A program made the position numbers and the translations under genes. A stretch of 64,000 nt of DNA from Polychytrium aggregatum. Taxonomy: Eukaryota; Chytridiomycota; Chytridiomycetes; Polychytriales. Shown piece after piece: positions 31,699-56,908 of the stretch. Numbering within the stretch: position 1 is the stretch's first letter; each line of letters starts with the position of its first letter. The notes under the pieces were generated by a model. The model worked only from the letters and a program-made list of their open reading frames with translations, was not told where the DNA came from and ran no database searches. The stretch spans positions 114,050 through 178,049 of the forward strand of contig NW_026516300.1 in NCBI RefSeq assembly GCF_025602895.1. Reading direction: 5' to 3'.

Positions 31699-34600
31699 TT
31701 AGTTGCGGCCGGTGCGGGTGACCACGCTGGTCTCGGGATACTTGATCTTGAAGGACGAAGACGGGTCCAGGGGATCGTCCAAGAAGCGAACGTGGTGCAG
31801 ATAGTTGAGACACTTCTCGACGACCTCCTCCAGCGAGGGACACGGCGCCGGGTAGATCGAGCGGGTGTTGGCGTTGTCGATCTTGAAGGACATGTCCATC
31901 ATGATGTGCATGAGCGGGAACAGGGCGTTGCTCTCGACGGCGGGATGGGAGTGGAATGCCTCTTTGAACTGCTCGCGGGTCTCGAACAGGATCGGCCAGC
32001 CATGGTTCCTGACAATCTCAAACAGCCGGGTCTCAGTGAGGACACTGTGGCGAGTGAGTGAGTGAGTGAGTGAGTGAGTAATCAGAGTCGGGATCCACCA
32101 TCTACACCACATCGCACTTCACACCACATCACACATTCCTCACCTGTGCTCCGAGTCGCTGACGTGGAACACAAACTTGGACAGGGACTCCTCCGAGCCG
32201 GCAATCTCGGCAACCACCTTGGCAACATGGTCGACGGGATCCATGGTCATCGTGACAAGAGTGGCGTGCGAGGGAGCAACACCGAGTTGGATGCATCCCT
32301 TGACATATCGCCAGATGTAGTCATCAGAGTTGGACACTGGAGCAATGGAGGGTGTGAAGGTGTCAGTTGGTGTCAGTTGGTGGATGAGTACCACTTGACA
32401 ATCGAGACCATCGATTCATGGCCAGTTCATATGAGCGAATGAGGCATCTCCATCACATCACACCACACCACACTCGACTCACCTCCGTACTGGCTGTCGC
32501 CAGCAATGACGGCTGGGCGAATGATCGTCGCAGGTACTCCCCTCGATCGTGCCTTGTTGACCAGCTGCTCAGAGACCCACTTGGTCTGGCCATACCCGCC
32601 AGAGATGTTCCAGGCCGAGTAGATCGTCTCCTCGAGCGGCTTGTCTGCCTTCTTGGCCATCGGGATCGTGCCGATGGTCGAGATGTAGTGCAGCGGCTTC
32701 AGGTGGTGGGTTGTGGCCAGTCTCAGGGCCGTCGCCGTACTGAGGACGTTGGGTCCCCTGAGTCTGTCATAGTCAAACAGCCAGTGGACCTCGGCGCCGT
32801 TGTGGACAATTATGTCGGTCTCCTCGCTGATCTCCTTCCATCGCTCGTCCGAGAGTCCCCACTTGTTCTTCGACAGGTTGCCGCACAGTCCAACGAGTCG
32901 AGACTTGAGGCTGTGGTCAAGGAAGGCTCTCTGGCTCGGATCGAGGACCAACTTCTGAGCCGTGCTGATGATGCGCTCGACAGCCACCTGCTCGGTCGGG
33001 GCTCGGACCAGGCAGTTGATCTTGGCCCGAGGGAACTTGTGTGCCAGCTCAAAGACCAGGAAGGCACCGAGGAAGCCAGTGGCACCGGTCAGAACGATGC
33101 CGCGAGGGTCCTTGGGATAGACAAACGGAGGAAGACCCTCGGCCGTCACACTCGTATCGTCGAGCTTGGCGGCCTCGGCAGCCAGATGGACGGTCGGGGG
33201 AATCATCGGTCTGTCGTCGAGGATGTCGACAACCAACTGGGCGACATCAGTCGGTGTCATTCCGTTCGACAGGAGGATCAGAGGCGATATCTCGACATTG
33301 AACTCGTCCTTGATGGCGAGGGCCAGGCGGCCGACACTCAGCGAGTCAAAGCCGACGCCGCCGATGTAGTAGTTGCGGCCGTCGAGGGCGGGGTTGTCGA
33401 TGATCTGGCTGCCAAGTGTGGATATCTTGGCGGCAGTGCGGGACAGGGGAGTGTTGGCGAGTTTTAGGGGAGGGTACTCGACCGACTTGCCGTACTGATC
33501 GGCATCCTCGGCGATGCGCCTGAGCTTCTTGAGGTCGCGCTTGCCCGAGTCGTTGAAGGGAAACTCGTCGAGCTCGAAGCAGTTGTGGATCGGGAACTTG
33601 GCGACGTTTGTCAGCGCAAACATGTCCTCGGTCAGCTGCAGAAGCTCGGCAGGAGTGGGGTTGACCTCAGAGCCCCTTCTGCGGACAAAGAGCATCACGA
33701 TCTTCTTCTCGGAGGTCTGGATGAAGGCACAGTCCGAGATGATCTTGGACATGTTTTCGTTGGCCAGCTCCTCGAGGGCGTTGAGGTCAACATAGACGCC
33801 GTTGACCTTGATCTTCTGGTCGAATCTGGAGTGATGGTGTGGAGTGAGGGAGTGGATGGCGTGAGTACTCGGGATGCAGGAGTGGGATGTGTCCTCAGGG
33901 TACCGGATGTGCATTCGCCATCAATGAGATGCAACACCCGGCCATTGATCTCACCTTCCAACCACAGTGAACTGCTTCTCGCCAACCATCTCGACCCAGT
34001 CCATGGTGCAGACACGGGGCGAGCCATCCTCAAGGAAGCCGAACGAGGCGAGCTTGTCATTCGGATCGGCGTTGACAAAGTTGGGGTGGTTCTTGATGGG
34101 ATGATCCTTGTCGACGGCAAAGACGAGGATTCCTTCCTTGGTTTGGTGTTGGTCAACAATGTTGCCTTCCTCGTCAAAAAGGAGAGAACGGATATCAGGC
34201 TTCATCAGCTTGTAAACCAGTTTGCCTGTTTTCAGAATCTCGTTGGCTGGGAGGCGGCAAACGGAGGTTGCGCCAATGAGGAGCGACTGAGGTTCATAGT
34301 GGGGTGAGAAAATGGCTTTGATTCAAGTACTCCATATCAGCTTCGACTCGGCGCCTGTTACTTACTTCACTCGATCCATATACTATTCCCAATACAGCAT
34401 TTGGGAAGATACGTTTGGTGCCATTCACGGTACTTGGAGGCACCAACTCCGAGCCCAAGGCAATTGTCTTGGTTTTCTCCCACTTGATATCGGGATTCTG
34501 TGACTGGGCCACACTGATGATCACCTTCATGTAAGAAGGGGTCTGACGGCAGAGTTCAACAGGGCAGCATCGTGCGTTAGCATCCATATCGCGAACAACT

Positions 34601-36032
34601 CCTCCGGGACAGACTCGACAGCTCACCAGGTAGAGGTACGATACGCCATCGTCCAGCATTCTGATCATGCTCTTGACTTTGTCGACGGTGTTGGGCGTGG
34701 GCTTAGGAATCCAAACTGATCCTCTAATGTTTGCAACGCACAACAAACTGCCAATTGTGACCACAAATGAGGGCAGCTATCGACGAACAGAGATTAATGA
34801 TCACGAACCCATCGCTGAGAAGCGCCACAACGATTCGGCTCAAACCTGGCTTAGTCCGACGCTCAAGTATGGGGTGCCAACGGAATTTCTGGAAGCCATA
34901 GCGCTCTTGTGAGACGAGATGTAGCTACATAAACATGGATAATGACAGGCATGTAAGAGATTATATGGATAGGTACGGTGGGCTGGACGATAGCGACATT
35001 GTCGAGCCACTTACGACTTGGGGACGCCTGGGATTGATCAAGAGTCGGTGTTGTGGACAGCACACGATCGTCAGAACAAGTCATTCTGGCCCATCATCAC
35101 ATCGCCACTGCTCCATGTCCTTCAACCATCGAGTTGTGCACCTTAACCTTCCACCATTTGCATCACCCGTGCCACATACCTGTCGTTCCGGAGGTGCACT
35201 GAAAGGTCACAAACTCATCGAGAGGCTCACAGACTTCGAGGGACGGAGATGGAATGCTTTCGATCACAGGGAAGGCGGCGGCATCGACCAGGGTCACACC
35301 CTCGATGCGACCAGGCTTGGTGTGGTGGTAGAGAATGTACTTGATCGCATGTCTGTCGGTTGATGGTGATGTGAGTGTCAGATCGGGATCGGGCATAGCT
35401 GACTCGATTCAAACCCCGGACCAGCCTGCTCATCCTCACGACAACATGGCAGGGACATACCTCTCGCACAGGGCCTTGCGGGCTGCAGGAGGCAGGTTGA
35501 GGGCAAAGTTGAGTGTTTTCCTGGATGGAGTTCAAAGGACAGGTGAGACTCGACCCTTGTCATGGCACGGAACAAGGGTTGAACGTGTCCCTTGCTTGAA
35601 TTGATGTTCACAACTCACATCAAAACATCACACCGCACCAATAGCGGATACTCACTTGCCCAGCATCCACACGGCGAAGGAGTAGATCACCCAGCTGGCT
35701 TCAGCCTCGCAGAATGTGCCGATGACGTCGTGGCCGTCGTCGCTCCAGCCAGGAAGCGCCTTGAGGGCCTGGGCGATCAAGTAAGCTCTTCTCCACACCT
35801 GGAGATAGCTGAAGCGCTCCGAGTCGCCGTTCTCGTATGTATTAATCAAGAGGGCATCGGGCTCGTCGCGGGCAGTGTTGACGAGACACTCGACGGGATG
35901 GAACCAGGGACCAAAGGGATCGGGCTGTGGAGGGAACTTTGGCTGTTGGGAGACAGGGGTCTGCGAGGGGACATCTCGGTCCTTGGGTGGGGCTGCGAGT
36001 CCTCCGAAACAGCAGGAGAAGGCTCTGAGCAT
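31699..36032 (-). CDS. Adenylate-forming reductase (A-T-R, NRPS-like)
   Basis: Eleven exons (36032-35656, 35520-35461, 35352-35180, 35027-35015, 34903-34846, 34776-34627, 34542-34366, 34286-33955, 33825-32483, 32336-32144, 32044-31699) join in phase to 1,073 residues. The adenylation core TSGTTGVPKSAM is spread over three exons, one only 13 nt long. The A domain continues through YGSSE to KIKVNGVYVDL. A carrier domain follows with GFDSL, where Ser is the phosphopantetheine site. A thioester-reductase Rossmann domain has GIVLTGATGFLGAFL and the YGQTKWVSE Tyr/Lys pair. Such enzymes activate a carboxylic acid as AMP ester, load it on the carrier and release it as aldehyde with NADPH. It is shorter than Lys2 and lacks Lys2's extra N-terminal region, so a lysine-pathway role is not assumed. 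It may share a locus with the NRPS downstream. Confidence 0.85.
32052..32079. repeat. GTGA microsatellite inside a reductase-gene intron
   Basis: About six gtga units lie in the intron 32045-32143 of the reductase gene. On the coding strand they form the cactcact tract just before the acceptor. Confidence 0.85.
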
Positions 36033-39000
36033 GGCAGAGAGATGGGATGAGGAAAGACAGGAGGCAGCAATCGACGATGTGCAGACGAGGCCAGGAGAGC
36101 GGCGACGAAGTCGAAGGAGCGAAATGAGAGAGCGACGAGGGGGGGGCAGAACGGAAAGGCCAGATGCTTTCCCCCTGTCGGGCTGGCGAGCCAGGAGACG
36201 ACGCCCCAAACAGCATACACTTCAATTCTATTCAATGCTATGTTGTTCAGCAGTGCAACACCGCTGACGGGGCTGAGATAATGCATTTTCACTGAGCAGA
36301 GTGGCGTCGAATCTCACTCGTTGTTCACACATTTCAACACACCAATTGCTCGCCTTGCTCTCACTCCCATGACAGTCTTAACCACAGTTTGCGCCTGCTA
36401 TGCGGCCCATCTGCACAAAGCAAAGACAGAGGTGTCCCGGCGCAACGACAGCCATCTCAAGACAAAGTCCCGCCATGCCGTTTCTGTCGACTTGGTTGTC
36501 AGCCGAATCTGTTTGGATGTCGTGACGAGGGGTGCTGCAGCATCGCCGATCGTCCTCGCTCCAAGCCAAGAAGCCATGCTCTGGTCTCTGCTGCCCGCCG
36601 GGGCGTGATTTGAGTGTCTTGCTCCTCCAAGGATGAAACTGCTGCTGCGTTGGTCGCCTGGAGGGAGCCAGGGTACCGCAACCGCTCATGAACCCAGGCC
36701 AGCCCAAGACGCCGATCGCCATCCTCGCTTCCAGGTCCGGCTCGGGCCTGGCCCGCCTTCGCTCCAGTCCACCGCCATTGAATCGCATCGGCTGCTGCTG
36801 CCCCGCCTTCCATTCGCCCCTCATTCCGACTCTCCTCGCGCCGGCGTTGTCGTTTCTGGCCATATCTCGTCGCTGCCGTTAGCGTTCGGCACAAACGCAC
36901 AACCAAAGTGACTCCAGACGAAAGACCTTGCTCTGGAGATGTGAGATCGTATTCGAGACTTGCCGGAAAGCCGCGGCCAGCTTAAAGTGCAATTCTACGC
37001 CCAAGGAGATCTTCGGTTTCGATCGGACAAGTCCACAGCCAAGACGACAATAGGACGATTGTTCGGATATGCTCAACTCCACCATCGCTACAAACCCGCA
37101 CAGTCAGGCTCAGCGGCGAGACCACAGGAGAGGATGACCTTCCACGAACCAAGACGGATGAAACGGCCCGGAACACTCCACTCGGACTCAATCGCACAAC
37201 GATCGACAAAGACCGTCTCTATGTCGTCGTGACGGGCGGTCCTGGAACTCGTCGTAGCGATATGGTCGATCGAAGACACACTCTCTCGTCCAGCTCAGTG
37301 CTATGATCTACAGGCCCAGGCAAGCACAGAGGCTGCTTGACATCTGCGAACAGCACAGCATCGAGAACAGGTACAAGCTGTCGCCCAAATGCGAGGCGAT
37401 CCTCTCCGAGGGCAACCCAGAACGAGCCACCGGCCACCGACTCTGTGGCCAGTTGCTGCCCATGGCAAAGGAGTTCAAGTACCTCGGAGCCACCTTCGAT
37501 GTCAGCGGCTTCCAGATGGACCGCCAGATCCAGCGGATGACGACGATGGCCCAAGCAGTGACCCAACAGATCGCAAAGCAAGGATGCGCCATGTATACCA
37601 ACTGCGGGCTCATCTCAAAGTCGGGCCATCACAATCGTCATCGTCTTGGACCTCAAGGCTCGAGAGCTGTTCATCGATCGGGCCGATGCGGCACAAACAG
37701 AAATCGCGACCGTGCCCAACGGAAGGGCTCCGATCTCTGATGCGGATGGCTGACGCTCGATGACTGGTGAATACACACTGCTTCTCACCTTTGCGATCGT
37801 CCGCTATGAGCTGTCTACCTTTTCATGCATGGACAGGACCACCGCAGTTGGCTGCCGCTGGAAGAGAGATGTGGAGGAGATGTAGTGGAGCGATATCGGG
37901 GCTCTCCTTTGGATTCAAGCACTTCGAGATCTTTCGCCCCGCCCTGCCCTGTCCGAGTCCGGGGCACTGATGCAAGTACGCCTGCTCCCATCCTTATACC
38001 CGAACAATGCTGCCCAAGCTGATATTGCGCTTCATGCGGGGTGCTGTTCGAGTTGGCCTGTCCTTCCTTCCGGAGGGTGCCCAACGATCCCGAACAACAA
38101 GCCAGCCAACTTTGCGGCTCATTTGCCTTGTGTGTTACGCGGCTATGCAGTCTCAAGGGATGGAGCAAACATGGCAGGCAAGGGCAAAGAGGAACGGCGG
38201 CCAACACAAGGCGCTTGGCGGCGGGGCGTGGTCTGAGTCCACGGCTGGTCCTGCACGGCCATCGCCTGACTCTCTCCTGCACTCCATCGCCACCAGAGCG
38301 GGCGAATCACCGCGGCCAAGGGGCAGCGACCGAAGGAACAGCAGGCCGAAAGGAGAGGGACATGAGAGGCGGTGCAAGCCGGCGATCTCGCCAAGAGTCA
38401 CGGGATGTGCCGTTGTCAACAACCGAGCAGGCCGGCAGACCCACCCGCCCGAGCGATTCGCTTCTGTGCCGACTGTGCCTTGTCGGCCGAGGTGCTGCGC
38501 AGGCCGACAAGGCAGCATTGGCAGCTATGGCAACTGCAGTGACTGTGATGGCTCTCGTGACTGTGGCAGCAGTAGCGGCTGTATCGACTGTGGCAACTGT
38601 GACAACTGTGGCGGTTGACTGGTTGGCATCTGTGCAACCACACCGCCAGAACGCGCTCGGCAGCCAGGACCCCGCCCTTGTGAGGCTGGCTTGATGGACC
38701 TCGATGGACCCACGATTGGCCCTCGGCTTGTTGTGGCTGCACCGCGACTTCGGCCTGCTACTGTTTGGAGAGTGACAGCGTGATCGAGAGTTTGTGTGCA
38801 GCCCCCGTTTTTTTTTTCCTTCGCACACGGAGCTTGTGCCTGTTCCCTTCTGACCACCGCGGATCCACCCAAGGCCCCGTCCTGCTGGTCTTGGTGCTCC
38901 TGTGCTCAGTAGCAAGCCACCTGGCTGCTGCGCTGGCCAGTCCAGCTGAACGTGCGCCTCGGTCGTCCCAGTCTCGGGGTAGGAGGAGCAAGAGCCCTTT

Positions 39001-39309: not shown

Positions 39310-40258
39310 ATGACTGCAGCGCCGACCCAACCAGCAAATGCAGGCCCGACTTGGAGAAAGGTGAGTGACCGTCCGTCTTGCCTGGATGTGGTCATTGCCA
39401 CCTCTATACATGTATTGACTCTGCCCCTTTCTGCAACGACGACATGTTGGTCGAACACCCCTCAAGGCCGACTTTGCTGCTCGAGCCTTCTTCGCAACCA
39501 AGTCCGGGCCATGGTACATCATATTCGCCTCTGCCGTTTTCGCCACCGTAGCCTATATTCCCTTTGGTGTGCTGTTTGTGATGCACGGAGCAACCGTCGC
39601 AGGGTATCCGTGGCTCCACTCACCTCAGGGCATGCTGGTGGGGAGCGTGCTCGCTCTGTTCCTCGTTCTCGACCTCATAATGGGTTTAAGATACTATCGC
39701 CGCCAGCTTGGAGTTGTTGGCGCTATACATCATGTTTCCTACCTTGCGATCATAGTTGCTTCCATGTTCGTCAGCGCCGAAGGCATCGGCGCGCTGCTTG
39801 GACTCATGGAAGCGTCGACATTGGTACTGACCCTCGGGATCATCTTCCCGCGTTTGCGAAACGACTGGCTTCTGGGAGCCACCACCCTAATCGTCCGTGT
39901 CATGTATGCGACCTATATAATCGCATCGACCTATCAAGCGTTTCCCAAGTGCTCGTTCTCGCCGAGTCTTCAGTGCCCGCATGGCTCCGAGGTCTTCTGG
40001 ATCTACGTTTTTACGCTGCCCCTGAACTACTTTTTCTTCTATGGCTGGATAATTCAACAAATCCGCAATTACAAACGAACCCGAGTGACAATTAATCAAA
40101 CTGCTGCCGATGTTGACGCCAAGAGCGGAAGCAGACGCAAACTCGAACATTCCCTACAAAAAATCGCCTCCACGACGCTGGGTGTTGAGCATGTCGACAT
40201 CCATCTTACTTTCTTTGATATGGGAGGCGACTCCATCAAGGCGATCACATTTATTTCA

Positions 40259-43200
40259 GAGGCACAGAAGGCAGGAATTGAGTTCTCGGTCAAGGATCTG
40301 TTCGAGCACCCGACCATCGCCGACCTGGCTCTCTTCATCGATCAACGATCTCCGCTCATCGACGAGGACCCTCTCGATCTGGACTCGGTCGAGCTCATCG
40401 ACACCGAGCTCAAGACCACCATCCTCGAGCACCACGGACTCACCCTCGACGATGTCGACGATGTGCTCCCAGTCACGTTCATGCAAGAGGCGATGCTGGT
40501 GTCCACCCTCAAGGATCCCCACGGATCGGTGTATTTCGCATCGTCGAGCTGGGAGATCAGAGGGCTCGACGAGAAGCACATCCGAGATTCGTGGAAGATC
40601 CTCCTCGGAATCTATCCCGTGTTGCGCACTCGCTTCGTGGTTGCCGACGGCCACATCTACCAGGTGAGGGTGTGAGTGATTGTGTGGTGATTGTGAGGTG
40701 ATTGTGAGGTGATTGTGATCTGTGGGTGAGCAGCACAGAGGCAGTGATGGTGAGCAGGAGTCGGTGTGATGGCTGCAGCAGTGATTGAACTGTCAGCATG
40801 ACAGTCGATGTCCACTGTGGATGGCCAATCTCTGCTTCCAGCCCACTTGTCCGCCATCTGTTCAGCGTTCCCTTCCTCATCATGCCTTGCTCGTCGCCAT
40901 TGTCGTTGTTGTTGCCTCAGATTGTCGTCAAGAAACAAGACTCGATCTCGATCTCGGACCTCCAGGCATCGCTCACCGACGTGAACCACAATCGCATTCC
41001 CCTCGTGTCCTTCGATGTGCGGCCATCGGCCTCTGCCTCGACGTCACTCGTCGATGGCGATGGTGTCCCTGCATCCGTTGCCATCCAAGGCTCGGCCAGA
41101 GACCCTGCCACTGTCATCGACATCGATGCCGACACTGACCGTGATGCTGTCGCCACGACCATCGGCAACAGCACCACCCTTGTTGTCACCATCACGGCCC
41201 ACCACGCCGTCTACGACGGATGGTCTGTTCCCCTGATCGTCAAAGATCTCTTTGCCATCCTCTCGGGCCACGTTCCTCGACCTGCGCCGTCGTCGCGACC
41301 GTTCCTCCAGTTCCTTGCTGCTGTGGATCCGCTTGCCACCGAGGAGTACTGGACTGGCTCTCTGACGGCAATCAAGTTGTCGGAGCGAGGATTCCTCCCA
41401 TCGATCTCACACCCGAGCGCCACTGATGGTGCACTGTCAACCGGACCGGCCTTCAAGGATCTGACTGTGGCGATTGCACCGTCGCTCACGGACATCAAGC
41501 GTGCGGCCCACGGTTTTGGAGTGACGCCGGCGACGATGGCCAAGGCAGCATGGGCGATGGTTCTCCACAAGTTCACACGTGTCGACGATGTTGTGTTTGG
41601 CTGGGTTGTGTCGGGACGCCAGGTGCCAGTGCGTGGCATCGAGAGGTGAGTGTCCAAGATCGTGTGGTGTGCAGTGGGGTTGTGGCCGAGAGCAGTTGGA
41701 TGGAGTGTGAGCCAGGGACATCGGAAACACAGAGTGGGAGCCAGAGACATCGGAGACACAGGGAGTCGATCGCCATGAGGTCGCTGTGAAGCAAGCACAT
41801 TGACTGTGTTCCTCTATCACCAACCACCCATCACCCACCACCTACATCCACAGAATGGCCGGTGCCTTCGTCAACACCGTTCCTGCTCCGTTCTCAATCA
41901 ACCCATCGCTGGCCCTTGCCTCGTTCCTCAAGACCACACATGCAAGCCACATCGACTCGCTCCCACACTCCCACGTGTCCATGTCCAACATCCTCAAGTG
42001 GCTCAACAAACAGACCTCGGATCAGCTGATGGACAGTCTGTTGGTCTTCCAGAACAACGAAAGTGTCCCGGACACAGTCACCACCGACTCGTTCAGCGTG
42101 CGCTGGATCGACAGGAGCGGCAACATCTCGGACTATCCACTCACTGTCGAGGTTGTCTTTGCCAACGACTCGAGTGCCTCGATCAGTCTTGCGTACAAGG
42201 CGACAATGTTCAGCGACGAGATCGTGGCCAGCATCGGCGACTGTCTGGCCTCCACCATCGCTCGCATGTGTGACTCGGCTTCCACGAACCTCATGCTTGG
42301 CGACCTCGTTGGTCTCAGCGAGAGCGAGATGGCGGCAGTGGTTGCTCTCGGCACCGGCCCATCCGTCCCTCTCGATCCAAACACACTCCTCCAACACCGA
42401 TTCGAGCACCACGCCGCCACGACGCCAGACAGCATTGCCATTGAGTGCGGCGACAACCGGATCACCTACGGCGAGGCAAACCGACGAGCCAATGTGCTGG
42501 CCCACCAACTGCGGTCGCTCGGGGTCACACGCAATGTCCCAGTTGCGATCCTGACCAGTCGGTCGGTCGAGATGATCGTGGGTCTGCTTGCGATCCTCAA
42601 AGCCGATGGCGTGTATGTGCCAATCGATGCAAGCTATCCGGTTCATCGGATCGAGTCGATGATTGCCGATGTCTCGCCGCTTGCCATCATCCACACTGTT
42701 CCGGCGACGCCACTGGAGGCAAGCATCAGTGCAAGCATCCGCCAAGTGTTCATGAACCAGACCGACGATGGATCCCATGACGGCTCCGCTGCACCACAGT
42801 CCACAAACGACGGCACAGCACTGGCGTACATCCTGTTCACATCGGGATCGACAGGAAAGCCAAAGGGTGTGACGATCACACACGGCGGTGCTGTGAACAC
42901 CATCGACCATGTCTCGCGCGATATTGCTGCTGCGGCAGCACACAGCAAACGGTATCTCCTCTCGTCGGCGATGACATTCGACTACAGCATGATCCAGATC
43001 TTCCCCTGCTTTGATGTCGGCGGCTGTCTGGTTGTTCCGCCAGAACTCAACTTTGATGCCTTCAAGCACTGCGACGTGGCGATGACGACTCCGTCGCTGA
43101 TCAACTCCATGGGTGCACCAGACGACTACACCAACATCAGGTTCCTGATGTCGGCAGGCGAGCGAATCACCAACTCGACGATCCAGCTGTGGAGAACGCG

Positions 43201-44333
43201 ATCGAGGCTGTACAACGGGTACGTGGGGGTGGCATTGGCGCTGTGACGAGGCTCTCACCCAGCGTCGTCGAGACTGCCATCGAGATCGGTGTTGATATCG
43301 GTGTTGGTATCGGTGTTGACATGAGCCTTGGCACTGCCGTTACCATTGGGATTGACATTGGCACTGACGTGAGATTGGCGTTGGAATCGGGGAATGCATC
43401 GACCTTGGAATTGGCACGGGAGAATGGCAAGGACAGTGTCGTCGCGACTGTCATTCACATCTGGCACTGGCAGATGGATCGACACTGGTGGCAACATCGA
43501 TGATGGCTTCGAGCTGATGAGTCAGCATGGCCGTCTCGACTCCAACTAACCGCATTTGGCGTTGTCCTCGATTCAGTTACGGTCCGACCGAAACAGCAAT
43601 TGTGATCACCACGAAGCTGTTCAACGACGATGTTCCGACCATCGGAAAGCCGATCCAGAACGGGTTCGTCATGATCATGGACAAGAGCGGCCGACCTGTG
43701 CCAGTCGGAGTCGCCGGCGAGCTCTGGATCGGCGGTGTCGGTGTCTCTCCCGGATACGTGAGCCGACCCGATCTCACGGCCGAGCGATTCACCATCAATC
43801 CGTTCTTCGACAACATGAGGATGTATCGATCCGGAGATCTGGTCCGATGGACTGCCAACGGCGAGCTCGAGTGCTTTGGCCGAATTGATCACCAGGTCAA
43901 GATCCGTGGCATCCGGATTGAGCTCGATGAGATCACCTCGACCCTCGACACCCACATGGCACAGGTGTCGGCATCGTGCGCGACAGTCAAGTCTGACCGC
44001 ATCGTTGTGTTTGTGTCTCCCGCCTCGGTCGATATCCGAGCGGTTCGCAGCACGATCGAGAGCCATCTCCCAGCGCACATGTGGCCGACGCTGATTGTAC
44101 CGCTTGAACAACTGCCAATCAACAACAACGGCAAGATCGATCGACTGGCTCTCGACGCTATCGAGGTCAGCTTTGAAACGAACGAGACGATCCAGCCGGC
44201 CGAGACCGAGACTGAGATGCGTCTGGTTGACACTTGGAGCCGTGTGCTTGGAGTCGAGGTGGCCAAGATCGGAACCAACCACACGTTCTTCGAGGCTGGC
44301 GGCGACTCTCTCAAAGCGATCGCAGTTGTATCT
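40259..44333 (+). repeat. NRPS module duplication, copy 1 (4,075 bp)
   Basis: Starts in the carrier domain at gaggcacagaag and covers C, A and half of the next T domain, including three introns. Copy 2 is almost identical base for base. Exons of 725 and 1,365 nt have exactly the same lengths in both copies. Confidence 0.92.
40677..40723. repeat. gtgattgtgag minisatellite in NRPS intron (copy 1)
   Basis: Three to four tandem units of gtgattgtgag(g) right after the donor of the intron 40664-40920. Confidence 0.85.
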
Positions 44334-44751
44334 GAGGCACAGAAGGCAGGAATTGAGTTCTCGGTCAAGGATCTGTTCGAGCACCCGACCATCGCCGACC
44401 TGGCTCTCTTCATCGATCAACGATCTCCGCTCATCGACGAGGACCCTCTCGATCTGGACTCGGTCGAGCTCATCGACACCGAGCTCAAGACCACCATCCT
44501 CGAGCACCACGGACTCACCCCCGACGATGTCGACGATGTGCTCCCAGTCACGTTCATGCAAGAGGCGATGCTGGTGTCCACCCTCAAGGATCCCCACGGA
44601 TCGGTGTATTTCGCATCGTCGAGCTGGGAGATCAGAGGGCTCGACGAGAAGCACATCCGAGATTCGTGGAAGATCCTCCTCGGAATCTATCCCGTGTTGC
44701 GCACTCGCTTCGTGGTTGCCGACGGCCACATCTACCAGGTGAGGGTGTGAG

Positions 44752-44809
44752 TGATTGTGTGGTGATTGTGAGGCGATTGTGAGGTGATTGTGAGGTGATT
44801 GTGATCTGT
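44752..44809. repeat. gtgattgtgag minisatellite in NRPS intron (copy 2)
   Basis: Same array as in copy 1 but one unit longer. It accounts for the 11-bp length difference between the duplicated introns. Confidence 0.85.
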
Positions 44810-45224
44810 GGGTGAGCAGCACAGAGGCAGTGATGGCGAGCAGGAGTCGGTGTGATGGCTGCAGCAGTGATTGAACTGTCAGCATGACAGTCGATGTCCA
44901 CTGTGGATGGCCAATCTCTGCTTCCAGCCCACTTGTCCGCCATCTGTTCAGCGTTCCCTTCCTCATCATGCCTTGCTCGTCGCCATTGTCGTTGTTGTTG
45001 CCTCAGATTGTCGTCAAGAAACAAGACTCGATCTCGACCTCGGATCTCCAGGCATCGCTCACCGACGTGAACCACAATCGCATTCCCCTCGTGTCCTTCG
45101 ATGTGCGGCCATCGGTTTCTGCCTCGACGTCACTCGTCGATGGCGATGGTGTCCGTGCATCCGTTGCCATCCAAGGCTCGGCCAGAGACCCTGCCACTGT
45201 CATCGACATCGATGCCGACACTGA

Positions 45225-45229
45225 CCGTG
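45225..45229. repeat. Target-site duplication, left (ccgtg)
   Basis: ccgtg precedes the 5' LTR and is repeated at 51305-51309 after the 3' LTR. In the uninterrupted module copy 1 the same place reads a single gaccgtgatgct. A 5-bp duplication is typical of Ty3/gypsy integration. Confidence 0.95.
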
Positions 45230-45648
45230 TGTGATGACCAGCATCACAACGGACCAATGAGATTGTCCCGCATGCTCTCGCCCTCCGCACCAATCATGAG
45301 TCCCCACGTGTTTGTTTGCCCCCATGCATGAGCACGCGCCGTTGCCACCCGCGTCTACTGGTTTCCTGCCTCCCCCACCGCTCGGCACATGTCCCCGGGC
45401 TGTGCCAAGCCTCTCTCGCTTGCACACCAGCCACTCTCGCACCCCCTTCTCGCTTCTCTGTGATGCTCCACCCTTCTCGCCCACTTTTGCCCCTCGACCT
45501 TCTCCCGGTCTATAAATAGCCCTGCATGTCTGAGCCTATGTTGAACACCAGTTCGAACAAAACTTGTTCTTTGGTGTTCGGGGCTAAAAGCTAATAAAGC
45601 TCATACCAAGCACTTGGTCTTCGTCCTTGCGCTTGTTCACTCCTTACA
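45230..45648 (+). repeat. 5' LTR
   Basis: 419 bp, tgtgatgacc...cttaca. It contains a TATA-like box tataaata (45511-45518), a putative transcript start region near 45551, and an aataaa polyadenylation-type signal (45593-45598). Confidence 0.95.
45511..45561 (+). promoter_or_regulatory. LTR core promoter and probable RNA 5' end
   Basis: TATA-like tataaata lies at 45511-45518. About 40 bp downstream is gttcgaacaaa (45551-45561), which is exactly complementary to the primer-binding site after the LTR. In self-priming Tf1/sushi elements the first 11 nt of the RNA pair with the primer-binding site, so the transcript start is inferred at or near 45551. Confidence 0.55.
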
Positions 45649-45649
45649 C

Positions 45650-45660
45650 TTTGTTCGAAC
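45650..45660 (+). other. Primer-binding site, likely self-primed
   Basis: tttgttcgaac begins one base after the 5' LTR and is the exact reverse complement of LTR bases 45551-45561. It does not begin with the tgg expected for pairing with a tRNA CCA end. Eight of the 11 bases form a palindrome (gttcgaac), which lowers the weight of the match. Confidence 0.55.
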
Positions 45661-45825
45661 TCTCTTCTACTGATACCACCTGCTTGGTATCTTCCGCTCC
45701 TAGCCCCGCCCCTTTCCTAGTCCTGTCCGAACCTCAAGCACACTTGTGTCTGAGCCCTCTTCGCTCTCCTGTTCTTGAACCTCCTCGCTTTTTTTTTTTT
45801 TCCCAGTCCCAGTCCCAGTCCCGCC

Positions 45826-46803
45826 ATGGATCCTGCCCTCGTGGACCGCCTCCGTGCCTTGGAGGCCGAGCTCGCCGAGCTCCGGACAGCTCGCGATGCT
45901 CCTGCCGCTGGGTACAGCGTGCAGATGCCGGACCGTTACGACGGTAACCGGCAAGGGTTCCGGGCATTCGTAAATCAGTGCAAACTGTATATACGAATGC
46001 AGCCCCACCGGTTCCCTGCTGACCCGATTAAGGTCGGATTCGTCATTAGTCTGCTCACTGGACCGGCTCTCCAGTGGGCGACTCCGATGCTTGAGATGGG
46101 TGATCCCCGACTCAACTCTTTTGGCGATTTCCTAGAACGCTTTTCCAAAGTGTTTGACGACCCTGATCGGGCCAGGACTGCCGAGTCAGTGATCACCACA
46201 CTGTCTCAGGGCAACCGCCCGTGCGCAGTCTATGCATCCGAGTTCCTTCGTATTGCCGCCGATACGACTTGGAACGACGGTGCAAAGATCTCGTTCTTCC
46301 GACTTGGCTTGTCGGATGATGTCAGAGACGAACTTTCGCGAGTTCGCCCTCTGCCACGAGATCTGGAGGAGTACATCGAGCTTTGTAACGAGCTCGATGC
46401 ACGAATCCGCGAGCGCCGTCAAGAGCGCCGAAGCACGCCTGCCCGCTACCGGTCTTCCCAGTTCGCCTTTGGTTCCGCCTCCGCTGCCGTTCCCGCCATC
46501 GCTCCCGCGCCCGTCCTCGCTCCGCCGCACCCCTCCTACATTGTTTCCGAGCCCATGCAAGTGGACTCTGCCGTCTCTGGACCCCTGACCGCCGAGGAGA
46601 AACAACGCCGCCGCCGCTTTGGACTCTGCCTGTACTGTGGCAAGAAGGGCCACTTGGTACGAAACTGCCCCGTCAAGTTTGGATCTACCAGAGCTACCGG
46701 ACCGCCCCCTGGACCTCCCGGCCCGAGGATCATCCGCACCATCGTTTACGAAGATGGAGAAGTGCAAGACTTCAGTTCGGGAAACGACCAGGCCCGGTTC
46801 TAA
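45826..46803 (+). CDS. gag: Retrotransposon Gag protein
   Basis: 325 residues from the first ATG after a long T run and a ccagtcccagt tract. It begins with a Leu/Glu coiled-coil-like segment (LVDRLRALEAELAELR). A retrotransposon capsid domain follows (region YDGNRQGFRAFVNQC to LFNELDARI-like helices), then a Pro/Ala-rich linker and one CCHC zinc knuckle, CLYCGKKGHLVRNC, which binds nucleic acid. The protein packages element RNA into particles in the cytoplasm. It ends in taa at 46801-46803 and is followed by pol in a different frame. No internal stops are seen. Confidence 0.93.
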   Translation: MDPALVDRLRALEAELAELRTARDAPAAGYSVQMPDRYDGNRQGFRAFVNQCKLYIRMQPHRFPADPIKVGFVISLLTGPALQWATPMLEMGDPRLNSFGDFLERFSKVFDDPDRARTAESVITTLSQGNRPCAVYASEFLRIAADTTWNDGAKISFFRLGLSDDVRDELSRVRPLPRDLEEYIELCNELDARIRERRQERRSTPARYRSSQFAFGSASAAVPAIAPAPVLAPPHPSYIVSEPMQVDSAVSGPLTAEEKQRRRRFGLCLYCGKKGHLVRNCPVKFGSTRATGPPPGPPGPRIIRTIVYEDGEVQDFSSGNDQARF

Positions 46804-46862
46804 GTGAAGGCCTTGAACCGGAGCCGTGCCCACCGCCTTCCGAAAGTGAAGACATTGGTAAG

Positions 46863-49800
46863 GTGCCTTTGGTAAGTACTGGGGAAGCAGTGATGTGCGG
46901 ACAGCTTCGCCTTGCCTCTGGACCGGCGGACACTCTCAGCTCTGGCATAGTACCCGTGGCACCTCTGGTGTCACTGGGAACTGCACCTCATCCACAGGTG
47001 CAAATACCTGAGCTGTCCTGCCAACCCTCGGCAAAGTTAACTGTCTGTGCTAGCCGCAACCCTGGTGCCGAAGCTGGTACCGAACCAAAGTCTTGTGTTT
47101 CGTCTGTTCGTCGTTGCTCGTTGGTTGTTCCCGTCGCTGTTCGTCTTCCTTCTGGTGATTCTCTGTCGTGCGAAGGACTTGTCGATTCTGGTGCCTCTGG
47201 CAACTTTATCGACGAGGACTTTGTTGCTCGACACTCTGTCCCCACCTGCTCCAAGGCTTCGCCCTTGGCAGTGGAAGGCGTGGATGGTAAGCCGCTGTCG
47301 TCTGGCCCCATCCTCCGCGAGACTGCTCCACTCGAGGTGATTCTCGGGGACGTCTCGCAACGCCTTCGGTTCGATGTGATCAGGTCTCCACATCAACCAC
47401 TTATCCTTGGCTTTCCTTGGTTGCGCACCGCCGAGCCCAAGATTGTCTGGTCTCGCGGTCTTCTTTGTCTCCCTCCTTCTGTTGATTCCGACCCCTCTCC
47501 ATGCACTACTTCTCTTTCGTCTTGCTCCACTTCCTCCAATGTCACTCCCCTTCTTGATGATTCCACTCCTTTGATTGATCTAAGCTCCTCTCCTACGCTC
47601 CCACCTTCGTCTTCCCCTTCTTGTCTTGTTCCTCCCGAACCCCTTCGCTCTTCCCAAACCCCTTCTTCTGTTGTCAGTTCTCTTTCCCTCCTTGATGTAC
47701 CTCCTCCTGTTGTTTGTTCTTCGGACATTGTTCAGAATAAAGTAACCGTCGAACATTATTCTGACCTTGTCCACGCCCCTCCTCTCAGCTCGGACGCTCC
47801 TCTCCGCGTCTGCAGCATTGATTACCGCTCGATGCGCGAGTCTTTGGATGCATGCAGGCATGGAACGCAACCCCTGACCATCTTTCAGGTCCATGTCCTG
47901 CCCACTGACGAGCCGAGCACTGCGACTGTCGAAGTGCCTGCGGAGTACAAGGACTTCCTGTCTGTTTTCTCTAAACAGGAAGCTGACTCCTTGCCTCCGC
48001 ATCGCCCTTATGACTGCCCCATTGACTTGGAGCCGGGCAAGTCGCCAAAGTTCGGGCCTCTGTACTCACTGTCCGAGCCCGAACTTCACGCTCTGCGTGA
48101 CTATCTCGACGAGAATCTTGCCAAGGGATTCGTTCGTCCTTCGTCGTCCCCAGCAGGCTCACCAATCCTCTTCGTCAAGAAGAAGGACGGCTCACTTCGT
48201 CTTTGCGTTGACTACCGCGCACTGAACGGTATCACGGTAAAGAACCGTTACCCTTTACCGCTGATCGGCGAGCTGCTGGACCGACTTCGAGGCGCGAAGG
48301 TGTTCACTAAGCTGGACCTTCGTGGAGCCTACAATCTGCTGCGCATCCGCTCCGGGGACGAGTGGAAGACAGCTTTCCGTACTCGATATGGGCACTTCGA
48401 GTACTTGGTGATGCCCTTTGGGCTCACCAACGCGCCAGCGACGTTCCAGCACTTCATCAACGACGTCCTGCGCACCGAGTTGGACCAGTTCGCAATTGCG
48501 TATCTTGACGATATCTTGATCTACAGTGCTGATCCGTCGCAGCATGTAGAGCACGTCAAGCAGGTCCTCTCGAAGCTCCGAGCTGCAAAGCTGTATTGCA
48601 AGCTGGAGAAGTGCGAGTTCTCCAAAACCTCGGTCTCGTTCCTTGGTTTCATGGTCTCGCCCGAGGGCATCGGTATGGAGCGATCCAAGCTCTCTGCGAT
48701 CTTGGATTGGCCCATACCGCGCAACATCTCGGATCTTCGATCCTTTGTCGGGTTTGCGAACTTCTATCGACGCTTCATCGATGGATACGCAAAGATCGCG
48801 GGGCCCATGACTCGGCTCTTCCGGAAGACGCATGGCTTCCAGTGGTCCCGCGAAGCCGATAAAGCATTCAGATCCTTGAAGGATGCCTTCGTTTCGGAGC
48901 CCGTTCTGGTGCATCCGGACCCATCCAAGCCGTTCGTCGTAGAGTCAGATGCGTCGGACTTTGCGCTTGGATGCGTGCTCTCCCAGCGGGGTGCTGATGA
49001 TCGCCTTCATCCTTGCTCGTTCCATTCGCGGACACTCTCGAATGCTGAACGTAACTACAGCATATACGAGAAAGAGCTGTTGGCGATCAAGGAGGCTTTC
49101 GAGGCGTGGCGACACTACCTCGAAGGCGCCCAGCATCCCGTTGCCGTTCTGACCGATCACAAGAACTTGGAGTACCTGGCAACGGCTCGCATCCTAAACC
49201 AGCGTCATGCACGGTGGTCCCAGTTCTTGTCTCGGTTCGACATCCGCATCCAGTACCGTCCTGGTGCGAGGAACGGCAAGGCCGATGCCCTGTCTCGTCG
49301 CTCGGACTACATCCCTTCGTCGGCCTCCGTGTCGAGGGATCCGCCTCTGCTTCTCGATCCTGCCGCGGTGATACGCGTGCTCCGAAGCAGAGACGCCCGC
49401 TCTTCGGTTGCAAGTCGCAGTGACCCTGTGGATTTGCTGCAGCTCATAGCCGAAGAGCAGGCTCGGGATCCCGGTCTAGACAAATACCGTCGTGACCCGA
49501 AGTTCGTCTGGAATGGCCAGTACCTCACCTTCCAGAACAGGATTGTGGTCCCAGAGTCGTGCCGAGTTCCGGCGCTCAAGTCGTGCCATGACCCAGTCGC
49601 TGTGGGTCATCCAGGCATCCGACGGACTCTGGCTCTGGTATCGCGACAGTTTTGGTGGCAAACCTATCGGAAAGATGTCAAAGAGTACGTCTCGACGTGC
49701 GACACCTGTGCACGCTCGAAAGCTCCGCGACACAAGCCGTTTGGGTTCCTGTTGCCACTCCAGACAGCCGATCGACCCTGGGGGACACTGACCATGGACT

Positions 49801-50885: not shown

Positions 50886-51304
50886 TGTGATGACCAGCAT
50901 CACAACGGACCAATGAGATTGTCCCGCATGCTCTCGCCCTCCGCACCAATCATGAGTCCCCACGTGTTTGTTTGCCCCCATGCATGAGCACGCGCCGTTG
51001 CCACCCGCGTCTACTGGTTTCCTGCCTCCCCCACCGCTCGGCACATGTCCCCGGGCTGTGCCAAGCCTCTCTCGCTTGCACACCAGCCACTCTCGCACCC
51101 CCTTCTCGCTTCTCTGTGATGCTCCACCCTTCTCGCCCACTTTTGCCCCTCGACCTTCTCCCGGTCTATAAATAGCCCTGCATGTCTGAGCCTATGTTGA
51201 ACACCAGTTCGAACAAAACTTGTTCTTTGGTGTTCGGGGCTAAAAGCTAATAAAGCTCATACCAAGCACTTGGTCTTCGTCCTTGCGCTTGTTCACTCCT
51301 TACA
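50886..51304 (+). repeat. 3' LTR
   Basis: 419 bp, no difference from the 5' LTR (45230-45648) noticed on visual comparison. It is followed by the target duplication ccgtg (51305-51309), after which the NRPS exon resumes. Confidence 0.95.
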
Positions 51305-54300
51305 CCGTGATGCTGTCGCCACGACCATCGGCAACAGCACCACCCTTGTTGTCACCATCACGGCCCACCACGCCGTCTACGACGGATGGTCTGTTCCCCT
51401 GATCGTCAAAGACCTCTTTGCCATCCTCTCGGGCCACGTTCCTCGACCTGCGCCGTCGTCGCGACCGTTCCTCCAGTTCCTTGCTGCTGTGGATCCGCTT
51501 GCCACCGAGGTGTACTGGACTGGCTCTCTGACGGCAATCAAGTCGTCGGAGCGAGGATTCCTCCCATCGATCTCACACCCGAGCGCCACTGATGGTGCAC
51601 TGTCAACCGGACCAGCCTTCAAGGATCTGACTGTGGCGATTGCACCGTCGCTCACGGACATTAAGCGTGCGGCCCACGGCTTTGGGGTGACACCGGCGAC
51701 GATGGCCAAGGCAGCATGGGCGATGGTTCTCCACAAGTTCACACGTGTCGACGATGTTGTGTTTGGCTGGGTTGTGTCGGGACGCCAGGTGCCAGTGCGT
51801 GGCATCGAGAGGTGAGTGTCCAAGATCGTGTGGTGTGCAGTGGGGTTGTGGCCGAGAGCAGTTGGATGGAGTGTGAGCCAGGGACATCGGAAACACAGAG
51901 TGTGAGCCAGAGACATCGGAGACACAGGCAGTCGATCGCCATGAGGTCGCTGTGAAGCAAGCACATTGACTGTGTTCCTCTATCACCAACCACCCATCAC
52001 CCACCACCTACCTCCACAGAATGGCCGGTGCCTTCGTCAACACCGTTCCTGCTCCGTTCTCAATCAACCCATCGCTGGCCCTTGCCTCGTTCCTCAAGAC
52101 CACACATGCAAGCCACATCGACTCGCTCCCACACTCCCACGTGTCCATGTCCAACATCCTCAAGTGGCTCAACAAACAGACCTCGGATCAGCTGATGGAC
52201 AGTCTGTTGGTCTTCCAGAACAACGAAAGTGTCCCGGACACAGTCACCACCGACTCGTTCAGCGTGCGCTGGATCGACAGGAGCGGCAACATCTCGGACT
52301 ATCCACTCACTGTCGAGGTTGTCTTTGCCAACGACTCGAGCGCCTCGGTCAGTCTTGCGTACAAGGCGACAATGTTCAGCGACGAGATCGTGGCCAGCAT
52401 CGGCGAGTGTCTGGCCTCCACCATCGCTCGCATGTGTGACTCGGCTTCCACGAACCTCATGCTTGGCGACCTCGTTGGTCTCAGCGAGAGCGAGATGGCG
52501 GCAGTGGTTGCTCTCGGCACCGGCCCATCCGTCCCTCTCGATCCAAACACACTCCTCCAACACCGATTCGAGCACCACGCCGCCACGACGCCAGACAGCA
52601 TTGCCATTGAGTGCGGCGACAACCAGATCACTTACGGCGAGGCAAACCGACGAGCCAATGTGCTGGCCCACCAACTGCGGTCGCTCGGGGTCACACGCAA
52701 TGTCCCAGTTGCGATCCTGACCAGTCGGTCGGTCGAGATGATCGTGGGTCTGCTTGCGATCCTCAAAGCCGATGGCGTGTATGTGCCAATCGATGCAAGC
52801 TATCCGGTTCATCGAATCGAGTCGATGATTGCCGATGTCTCGCCGCTTGCCATCATCCACACTGTTCCGGCGACGCCACTGGAGGCAAGCATCAGTGCAA
52901 GCATCCGCCAAGTGTTCATGAACCAGACCGACGATGGATCCCATGACGGCTCCGCTGCACCACAGTCCACAAACGACGGCACAGCACTGGCGTACATCCT
53001 GTTCACATCGGGATCGACAGGAAAGCCAAAGGGTGTGACGATCACACACGGCGGTGCTGTGAACACCATCGACCATGTCTCGCGCGATATTGCTGCTGCG
53101 GCAGCACACAGCAAACGGTATCTCCTCTCGTCGGCGATGACATTCGACTACAGCATGATCCAGATCTTCCCCTGCTTTGATGTCGGCGGCTGTCTGGTTG
53201 TTCCGCCAGAACTCAACTTTGATGCCTTCAAGCACTGCGACGTGGCGATGACGACTCCGTCGCTGATCAACTCCATGGGTGCACCAGACGACTACACCAA
53301 CATCAGGTTCCTGATGTCGGCAGGCGAGCGAATCACCAACTCGACGATCCAGCTGTGGAGAACGCGATCGAGGCTGTACAACGGGTACGTGGGGTGGCAT
53401 TGGCACTGTGACGAGGCTCTCACCCAGCGTCGTCGAGACTGCCATCGAGATCGGTGTTGATATCGGTGTTGATATCGCGGCTGACATGAGCCTTGGCACT
53501 GCCGTTACCATTGGGATTGACATTGGCACTGACGTGAGATTGGCGTTGGAATCGGGGAATGCATCGACCTTGGAATTGGCACGGGAGAATGGCAAGGACA
53601 GTGTCGTCGCGACTGTCATTCACATCTGGCACTGGCAGATGGATCGACACTGGTGGCAACATCGATGATGGCTTCGAGCTGATGAGTCAGCATGGCCGTC
53701 TCGACTCCAACTAACCGCATTTGGCGTTGTCCTCGATTCAGTTACGGTCCGACCGAAACAGCAATTGTGATCACCACGAAGCTGTTCAACGACGATGTTC
53801 CGACCATCGGAAAGCCGATCCAGAACGGGTTCGTCATGATCATGGACAAGAGCGGCCGACCTGTGCCAGTCGGAGTCGCCGGCGAGCTCTGGATCGGCGG
53901 TGTCGGTGTCTCTCCCGGATACGTGAGCCGACCCGATCTCACGGCCGAGCGATTCACCATCAATCCGTTCTTCGACAACATGAGGATGTATCGATCCGGA
54001 GATCTGGTCCGATGGACTGCCAACGGCGAGCTCGAGTGCTTTGGCCGAATTGATCACCAGGTCAAGATCCGTGGCATCCGGATTGAGCTCGATGAGATCA
54101 CCTCGACCCTCGACACCCACATGGCACAGGTGTCGGCATCGTGCGCGACAGTCAAGTCTGACCGCATCGTTGTGTTTGTGTCTCCCGCCTCGGTCGATAT
54201 CCGAGCGGTTCGCAGCACGATCGAGAGCCATCTCCCAGCGCACATGTGGCCGACGCTGATTGTACCGCTTGAACAACTGCCAATCAACAACAACGGCAAG

Positions 54301-56908
54301 ATCGATCGACTGGCTCTCGACGCTATCGAGGTCAGCTTTGAAACGAACGAGACGATCCAGCCGGCCGAGACCGAGACTGAGATGCGTCTGGTTGACACTT
54401 GGAGCCGTGTACTTGGAGTCGAGGTGGCCAAGATCGGAACCAACCACACGTTCTTCGAGGCTGGCGGCGACTCTCTCAAAGCGATCGCAGTTGTATCCGA
54501 GGCACAGAAGGCAGGAATTGAGTTCTCGGTCAAGGATCTGTTCGAGCACCCGACCATCGCCGACCTTGCCTCTGCAATCGACGGCGATTCTCTGTCAAAG
54601 CCGAAGCTGAAACAACCATCAGCACTCGTGTCCAATTCTGAGCTTGCTGCTGTTGAAGCCAGGCTCAAACACTTTGATATTGCGGCAGAAGAGGTTGAGA
54701 ACATTCTTCCTGCCACTCCCCTGCAGCAAGTGTTGCTTGAGTGGGTCAAATCGCAACCGCACGCCTTTGGTGCCACAGACGTCTTTGAAGTCCGAAATGT
54801 CTCGCTGGATCAAATCACAGACTCCTGGAAGCGGCTCTCTGATCTCTACGAAACCATCCGAACCCGTTTCGTCTCGACTGAATATGGCGTATTCCAGGTA
54901 TGTCGTTCCCCTGCGCCCGTGACGTTGCTCCCTGTGCTGCTTGTTTGCTTGTCCACACACGGTCTACTGCAACAGCCATTCATTCCAACCGGATTGAGGA
55001 CCCACACCCTCTATTATTGTACTTTTTCTCATGCGTCGGCTTCACCATTTCCTCTTCATCCTTCGTGACCTCTCACAATATCATTGGCCCATCCGATTTC
55101 TTTGATCCCCCAGGTCATCTTGTCCCCTGACTCTACACATTGCGAGAAGCCCATACTTCTCTCTGATCCTTCGCTCCTGGAAAACATCTCCAAGCCGTCG
55201 TTCCTGGAAACTCCAGACAGCTCATACATCGAGAATCGTGCATTCATGTCCCTCTATGTGGCTGAATGCTACGACTCTGAACAAACCCTGAGAGTCGTGA
55301 TCACAAATCACCACGCTATCTATGACGGAACATGTGCCAGCTTCCCTTTCTTGGACTTTTACAAGTTGTTCAGCGGAGAATCGCCTCAGAAGCGCCCATC
55401 CCAGCGAGGTCTCTTTGAATATGTCTCCTCGCTCGACAAGGTCGCCACGGCAAAGTATTGGCAGGGGCTCCTCCATGATCATGGGGATTTTGCCCGTATA
55501 CCATCTATTCAAGTTCCAGGAATGGAGACGCGGAAACATCTGCGATACATCCCCACAGCCCACGCCAAGCGGTCCCTCGAAACGGATCTCCAGCATATGA
55601 CAAGCGTAGCCCGAAAGCGCGGAGCAACTATTGGTGATCTAGCCCAGGCGGCGTGGGGCCTCACGCTGTCGTCCATATGTGGCAAACCAAAGATTGCATT
55701 CGGATCGTTGCTGTCGCGGCGCAACGCCCCAGTTCCGAACTTTGACCGGTATGTTATCGATTGAATACGGCGGCGACTGTTCATCACTCGAGGCGGTGGA
55801 TGTGATGTTTATGGATATCCTCAGAGGATCAAGTCTCGATAGGGTGACGCTCTTGACGGCAGAAGTTCAATTGCATTAACATACCCTGAATGAACATATT
55901 GCACCGAATGACCCTTTAAATTTCGTTTTCCTTCCTCAGCACCATGGGAGCATTCACCAACATCATCCCCGTGGTCCTCAACTGTGGTCCTGGGTCCTCT
56001 GTGGACAACCTGCTTCGAGCCATCCAAGATCAACGTGTTCATTCGTTTGACCATATGCATGTGACATTCACCGAGCTCACCAGCTATGCACAAGCAGCGG
56101 ACATTGTCGACGTTATCGAGACCATGTTGCTGGTGCAAATTAACCCCGAGAATAGCTCACTCCAGAGCATTGCTGTCACTGACGCTCCAGGCGTACCCAA
56201 CATCAAGCATCTCGGATCCATACATCCGGACTATGAATGTATGGATCAACCTCTGGAATGCGTCCTCGAGTTTGAAGGCGGACAGCCGACATTCAATTTC
56301 TACTATGCTGCAAAGATTTACGACACCTCCGTTATTCAGCGCTTGGCCGATACCTTTGCCTCGCACTTGCTCGACATCTTCTCTGATGACAACGTGGCGG
56401 ACCCAGCCCAGTGTTGAATCTATTCCGGGTGGGGATAACGATACGGAAGACATTTGATTTGCTTTTGTCACGCTGTAGTCTTTGCGCATGAGAAGGGGGA
56501 CACCCCGATTCGAGCCAGGACAGCTGTTCTTTGCTGGAGCCTGAATACACCTACCTACCCACCCCACTCATTGCAACCTTGGCCAAACAGTATGTCTAAG
56601 GAGACTGAGGAGGTGATTGCCTTTGGAAATGCCTCCAGGAAGCAAGGGAAGGGAGTGCATCCAGTCCACAGAGACTCCGGTTTGCTCGGTATTTCGAGCA
56701 GTTCATCCACCACCAGAGACGTCCAGGTGTGCTCTCGAACATCGAACGCGCAGGGCCAACCGAGTTTCACTGCGCGGCCCACCCAGCACCGCCCCCGTTT
56801 CCACCGCCCTCGTTGCCCATTCCTTCGCTTCTGCTTTTGCCGTCGATCCCATCTGCCCCTGGCCCCGGCTGCCTCCCGCCAGCCCGCCTCCACCCCTCGC
56901 TTCCCGCC

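Follow-up and report, generated by a model that had tools for sequence, protein, structure and literature searches.

The window analyzed here is a stretch of 64,000 nucleotides from the chytrid Polychytrium aggregatum (RefSeq assembly GCF_025602895.1, contig NW_026516300.1, positions 114,050 to 178,049), and it sits on a 178,049-base contig, C417 in our set for the same genome. It harbors a gene for a nonribosomal peptide synthetase (NRPS) whose predicted N-terminal domain is a six-helix barrel of the TLC (TRAM/LAG1/CLN8) type, related to a family of stand-alone fungal proteins and continuing in the same frame into a carrier domain. We tentatively suggest that the gene encodes an integral membrane peptide synthetase with carrier (T), condensation (C) and adenylation (A) domains in the order TLC-T1-C1-A1-T2-C2-A2-T3-C3, in which the barrel acylates T1 and lipopeptide synthesis starts at the membrane. 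Taken as a whole this explanation falls somewhat short of probable in our judgement; its anatomy is read from the sequence and we infer all of its chemical steps. The coordinates of the features are given in Table 1.

Exon 2 encodes the membrane domain, all of T1 and the first part of C1, and a consensus GTGAGT donor links exon 1 to it in frame in the gene model. Exon 2 has no stop in the coding frame, and the other two frames have 11 and 5. The probability of 399 open codons at the base composition of the exon is approximately 4e-7, and in Markov simulations of exon 2 any of the three frames was open in 1 of 3000. Approximately 20 residues separate the last membrane helix (ending around residue 207, or at 211 in the AlphaFold2 (AF2) model) from T1 at residue 230, and this stretch contains no stop, no frameshift and no in-frame Met. 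T1, with its phosphopantetheine Ser of GGDS encoded at 40232-40234, is complete only if translated through from the membrane exon, which disfavors a separate upstream membrane gene, the case that the first-pass annotation had named as refuting a fusion. The unbroken run into a carrier and then a condensation domain claimed there, and with it a covalent fusion at the DNA level, is what we find, although the C1 fragment in exon 2 scores 26.1 bits, below the Pfam cut-off of 30.6 for PF00668.

The TLC/T1 join is located upstream of a tandem-duplicated unit that begins at 40223, within T1. The TLC part is found at high identity in one place in the genome. A piece of 89 residues including T1 is found in three places, all on the same contig, namely itself, T2 and T3. 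An assembly artefact at the join was considered and is disfavored, as the join is outside the duplicated unit and the sequence is found once in the genome. In a comparison of small samples that excluded exon 4, GC at third codon positions was 0.64 in the TLC part, 0.47 in the linker and 5' half of T1, and 0.69-0.78 in the 3' half of T1 with C1, exon 3 and exon 5. The lower values of the TLC part and of the linker and 5' half of T1 hint at an older TLC-T1 pairing.

Exons 1 and 2 had been described as hydrophobic with several helices, and this agrees with our analysis. A hydropathy scan with a threshold of 1.3 gave five regions (residues 18-36, 50-74, 83-111, 102-127 and 135-153, some windows overlapping) and missed the sixth and last helix. 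The AF2 model shows six long helices (H14-44, H53-76, H78-102, H105-126, H133-158 and H173-211) forming the six-helix barrel of a TLC domain, and its best fold alignments are with ceramide synthases. The model of a stand-alone paralogue has an extra first helix that the fused domain lacks. With helix limits placed by hand, the counts of Lys and Arg along the loops are 2, 0, 2, 0, 2, 1 and 5. This alternation follows the positive-inside rule for a protein that crosses the membrane six times and has both termini in the cytosol. TLC proteins usually sit in the endoplasmic reticulum (ER). From this usual location and the topology, the protein would span an internal membrane, probably that of the ER, and expose its C-terminus to the cytosol.

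A search of the genome with the membrane domain at E <= 10 gave seven places: the domain itself, three paralogues (E 3.0e-14, 1.8e-12 and 2.9e-12) and three weak matches (0.55-1.2). The first paralogue matches the TLC profile PF03798 with E 1.4e-4 and 22.3 bits, below the cut-off of 24.6, the second with E 1.8e-5 and 25.2 bits, just above it, and the third has no PF03798 match. At E <= 1 the profile matches four of the seven family members, and it is through these profile-matching intermediates that the membrane domain is linked to TLC proteins. Its uncharacterized relatives are P0064 from Polychytrium, P0065 from Phlyctochytrium bullatum, P0066 from Chytridium lagenaria, P0067 from Podila humilis and two genes on contig C290; they share its invariant residues at 25-31% identity. 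Unlike the fused domain, the four database proteins are stand-alone, with 270-395 aa. A profile made from six homologues, window sequence excluded, scores the membrane domain at 105.3 bits; shuffled versions reached at most 10.4 bits (2000 full shuffles) and 8.5 bits (500 block shuffles). A profile search with four family members, which scored only the 7997 candidates with most shared words, gave four proteins at E <= 0.01, from Phlyctochytrium bullatum, Chytridium lagenaria, Podila humilis and, as own paralogue, Polychytrium.

Other searches were negative. In the PDB the profile of four family members matched only five PsaK sequences (E 0.98-1.7), which we regard as chance, and neither a ceramide synthase nor ELOVL7 or TMEM120A; we know of no NRPS link for the latter two. 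A phmmer search with residues 1-225 of a 402-aa piece gave no match at E <= 1. Alignment of the family by hhalign with single ceramide-synthase and TLCD-like fragments from the same genome gave no significant score; HH, E and R of the TLCD-like fragment are in register with the family, in an alignment that is not significant and is mentioned as illustration only. It should be noted that two of the TLC-like genes, L010 and L011, adjoin each other on C290 as stand-alone genes with scores close to the PF03798 cut-off. This profile seems to miss much of the fungal branch around them.

Residues invariant in all seven members are D69, G73, Y77, G85, H88, H89, E115, T118, L123, G124, R131, D133, G137, R144, P185, F191, Q197, Q198 and R200. 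They include the His pair of the Lag1 motif, H88 and H89, and the double-His motif and Arg-containing helix pointed out in the first-pass annotation correspond to this pair and to R144. Ceramide synthases (CerS6, Lag1/Lac1; PF03798) likewise have a six-helix barrel, a His pair on a barrel helix and a conserved Arg two helices later.

The remainder of the gene has C, A and T domains in modular order with intact signatures (PF00550, PF00668 and PF00501; GGDS and HHxxxDG), as in an NRPS, and among PDB sequences linear gramicidin synthase subunit A matches the A domain best. No adenylation domain is found ahead of T1, and T1 would therefore be loaded by something else. Since the C-terminus is predicted to be cytosolic after six helices, T1 would be placed at the mouth of the barrel. 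The phosphopantetheine arm of T1 is chemically the same as that of coenzyme A (CoA). We suggest that an acyl-CoA enters the barrel from the cytosol, that the His pair would accept the acyl group in the fashion of a ceramide synthase, and that the acyl group would pass from His to the phosphopantetheine thiol of T1. C1 would then couple it to the amino acid on T2; given two almost identical A domains, one kind of residue would be incorporated twice. According to the excerpted text of PMC11919693, the acyl group in CerS6 is borne by the first His of the pair, the second His is indispensable, and CoA is placed on the cytoplasmic side, to which the cavity opens. Supply of an acyl starter by the TLC domain, proposed in the first-pass annotation, is plausible as a hypothesis; the domain lacks the Lag1 aspartates. 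The narrower proposal, of a TLC-fold enzyme acting in cis as an acyl-CoA:carrier-protein S-acyltransferase with an acyl-histidine intermediate in the membrane and so starting lipopeptide synthesis, is one that we regard as a real possibility, though less than probable.

Several observations weigh against this proposal, some bearing on the chemistry and some on the fusion. The check suggested beforehand, a search of the membrane part against PF03798, gave no match for the domain itself at E up to 1 or up to 10. Foldseek alone was not significant either, with yeast CerS at rank 1 (E 3.0) and CerS6 at rank 3 (E 5.3); for a stand-alone paralogue it placed Slo1 at rank 1 and CerS6 at rank 18, again without significance. 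For this reason the case for a TLC fold rests on VIA Z and the sequence links, and the resemblance first noticed stands by way of the paralogues that touch PF03798 and of the predicted fold, and not by a direct profile match or by Foldseek. The Lag1 aspartates are absent, so the domain is not a ceramide synthase, from which the carrier fusion and the lack of a Pfam or PDB sequence match also set it apart. Near the places of these aspartates are E115 and T118, 26 and 29 residues past the second His compared with 27 and 30 in CerS6, a correspondence made by spacing and not by structure overlay. Catalysis by the fungal family is hypothetical, and we know of no TLC protein that transfers an acyl group to a carrier thiol.

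The same lack of Lag1 aspartates and the hypothetical function of the family would fit a barrel that is a non-catalytic membrane anchor or a lipid-sensing module. T1 would then be loaded in trans, be it by one of the A domains of the synthetase (A1 or A2), by a neighboring A-T-reductase or by a free acyl ligase. An A-T-reductase gene lies approximately 3 kb upstream of the synthetase in the opposite direction, and fungal NRPS-like proteins with membrane parts exist, such as ChNPS12 (PMC2823734) and TmpL (PMC2766074) in the excerpts of these papers. We hold this to be a serious possibility without thinking it probable; a plain anchor would not need the polar set HH/E/T/R, which is invariant in 7/7.

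As for the fusion itself, it is seen at the DNA level and in one genome only. The only public models returned by our searches are BJ171DRAFT_466684 (P0002) and P0005, and neither holds the TLC part, which counts against the fusion. P0002 starts midway through T1, with the Met of MGGDSIKAI (40220) as its first codon. A fresh retrotransposon with long terminal repeats (LTRs) divides C2 at 45229/51305, so the assembly line of the sequenced copy is interrupted, and because the element splits the second copy of the duplicated unit, this copy may yield only the first half and not the full product. In another reading the fusion is genomic only: the two parts may be expressed apart from each other or remain silent, or the locus may be a pseudogene decaying after the insertion. 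We consider this unlikely. Besides its start in the middle of a T domain, P0002 lacks C1 stretches that are present in the open frame and its 3' end runs into an intron, and the first codons of P0005, marked partial, match the LTR end in a comparison by eye; both look like unaided predictions. The frame continues from TLC into T1 free of stops, frameshifts and in-frame Met codons, and the exon model stays open all the way to the element.

A further alternative puts the barrel at the other end of the chemistry, passing an acyl or peptidyl group from the carrier to the amine or alcohol of a membrane lipid. The acceptor to which ceramide synthase transfers acyl groups is a long-chain base, according to the same excerpts (PMC11919693). 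A C domain is the last one found, and scans of stretches beyond it gave no thioesterase. T1, on the other hand, precedes C1 as its donor site, a better fit to loading, and we find such a release role quite improbable. More improbable still, in our opinion, is self-protection by a ceramide-synthase relative against a sphingolipid-targeting product. In the fumonisin cluster its own ceramide synthases are reportedly proposed to protect the producer. In the excerpted text of PMC9134587, Fum17, Fum18 and Cer1 are located to the perinuclear ER, and self-toxicity is said to be avoided by separating fumonisin steps from ceramide synthases. Against such a role speak the covalent attachment of the present domain in front of T1 and its lack of the Lag1 aspartates.

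The lipopeptide synthetases known so far begin with a soluble ligase or a specialized condensation domain. PvdL-type synthetases have an N-terminal acyl ligase module, soluble and AMP-forming, before T and C, and thus likewise an acyl-loading module in this position, with a soluble ligase where we find a membrane barrel. With a TLC-carrier fusion, a loading step inside the membrane would join these, and peptide synthesis would be sited at the membrane. If true, this would be a new route of starter-unit loading and an activity new to the TLC superfamily. Should the TLC domain acylate the phosphopantetheine thiol, its stand-alone relatives may catalyze comparable reactions with CoA or carrier proteins, and the fusion would offer a handle on TLC proteins without known reaction.

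The epsilon-poly-lysine and delta-poly-ornithine synthetases (Pls, PosA) are also membrane-bound NRPSs. In the excerpts of PMC10522769, however, their membrane part is C-terminal, with three helix pairs round soluble domains and a role in polymerization, and it is not a TLC barrel. TmpL (PMC2766074) and ChNPS12 (PMC2823734) resemble the present gene in having an NRPS-type A domain fused to membrane helices; unlike here, the excerpted texts report no C domain and tie the membrane part to a redox module, of the ferric-reductase type in ChNPS12. The T-C-T-A-T-FSH1 protein BDEG_03514.1 of B. dendrobatidis is a chytrid NRPS with a T domain first, for which the excerpts of PMC2823734 mention no membrane domain. 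That survey of 2010, in the same excerpts, found NRPSs scarce in Chytridiomycota, and a later report gives gut fungi many more than other chytrids (PMC8106346, in part).

With residues 1-330 of a 1500-aa piece as query, phmmer gave 62 proteins at E <= 1. Two of these are P0002 and P0005, and the other 60 were taken as T-domain matches from coverage and names. None of four matches with higher coverage (P0035, P0051, P0053 and P0056) starts with a membrane domain when inspected by eye; the candidates were only proteins of approximately 825-2625 aa sharing 5-residue words, and absence elsewhere is weak evidence. In the open-licence PMC literature we found no TLC or PF03798 NRPS, no N-terminal membrane NRPS fusion and no protein with integral-membrane and condensation domains. 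Within the limits of this search the architecture looks undescribed, as had been supposed.

The two copies of the duplicated unit are 97.1% identical between 40223-41143 and 44298-45229, and 99.1% identical between 41138-44416 and 51304-54581. A second copy of the 4,075-bp unit at 40223 starts at 44298, which makes TLC-T-C-A-T-C the probable ancestral order; this would later have become TLC-T-C-A-T-C-A-T-C. The duplication (40223-44297 and 44298-54581) comprises a whole NRPS module including introns, has its borders within T domains, and is a fresh example of module gain. The retrotransposon encodes gag (45754-46800) and pol with a chromodomain (46389-50882). Its insertion is very recent, given the identical LTRs and the target duplication.

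Table 1. Features of the TLC-NRPS locus and its surroundings (positions in the window)
Feature	Position	Strand	Remarks
Exon 1	39310..39360	+	51 nt, 17 residues; predicted ATG start; GTGAGT donor; phase 0 into exon 2
Exon 2	39467..40663	+	membrane domain, complete T1, start of C1; followed by intron 40664-40920
TLC-like six-helix membrane domain	39467..40087	+	exon 2 residues 1-207
Key residues H88/H89	39728-39733	+	
Key residue E115	39809-39811	+	
Key residue R144	39896-39898	+	
T1 carrier domain	40154..40336	+	PF00550 E 8.5e-15, profile 3-66 of 67; exon 2 residues 230-290
Start of C1 (rest of exon 2)	40457..40663	+	PF00668 profile 2-73, E 4.5e-6, from residue 331
Exon 3	40921..41645	+	C1, HHxxxDG motif HHAVYDG; gene model, PF00668 in own-genome search
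Exon 4	41854..43218	+	end of C1, first part of A1; gene model
Exon 5	43577..44738	+	end of A1, T2 (GGDSLKAI at 44298), start of C2
Exon 6, fragment of C2	45007..45229	+	broken off at 45229 by retrotransposon
Remainder of synthetase	51305..56417	+	rest of C2, A2, T3 (GGDSLKAI at 54463), terminal C3; Pfam, partial model P0005
Tandem-duplicated unit, copy 1	40223..44297	+	4,075 bp; copy 2 from 44298, resumes past retrotransposon
Ty3-type LTR retrotransposon in C2	45230..51304	+	5-bp target duplication CCGTG; LTRs 100% identical
NRPS-like A-T-reductase gene, divergent neighbor	31702..36050 (approximate limits)	-	PF07993 1.3e-51, PF00550 2.6e-4, TIGR01746 4.3e-64
UDP-glycosyltransferase-like gene, directly downstream neighbor	56900..59110 (approximate limits)	+	PF06722 4.8e-17

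The neighboring A-T-reductase gene matches PF00501 with E 3.8e-4 and the UDP-glycosyltransferase-like gene matches PF03033 with E 2.8e-5, each below the cut-off of its profile. At a guess from position, these two genes may form a cluster with the synthetase. In the P. aggregatum genome several genes are found twice on different contigs (e.g. C42/C201, C93/C375 and C33/C408), as if alleles or recent copies had been kept apart. The TLC-NRPS locus on C417, unlike these, is found once.
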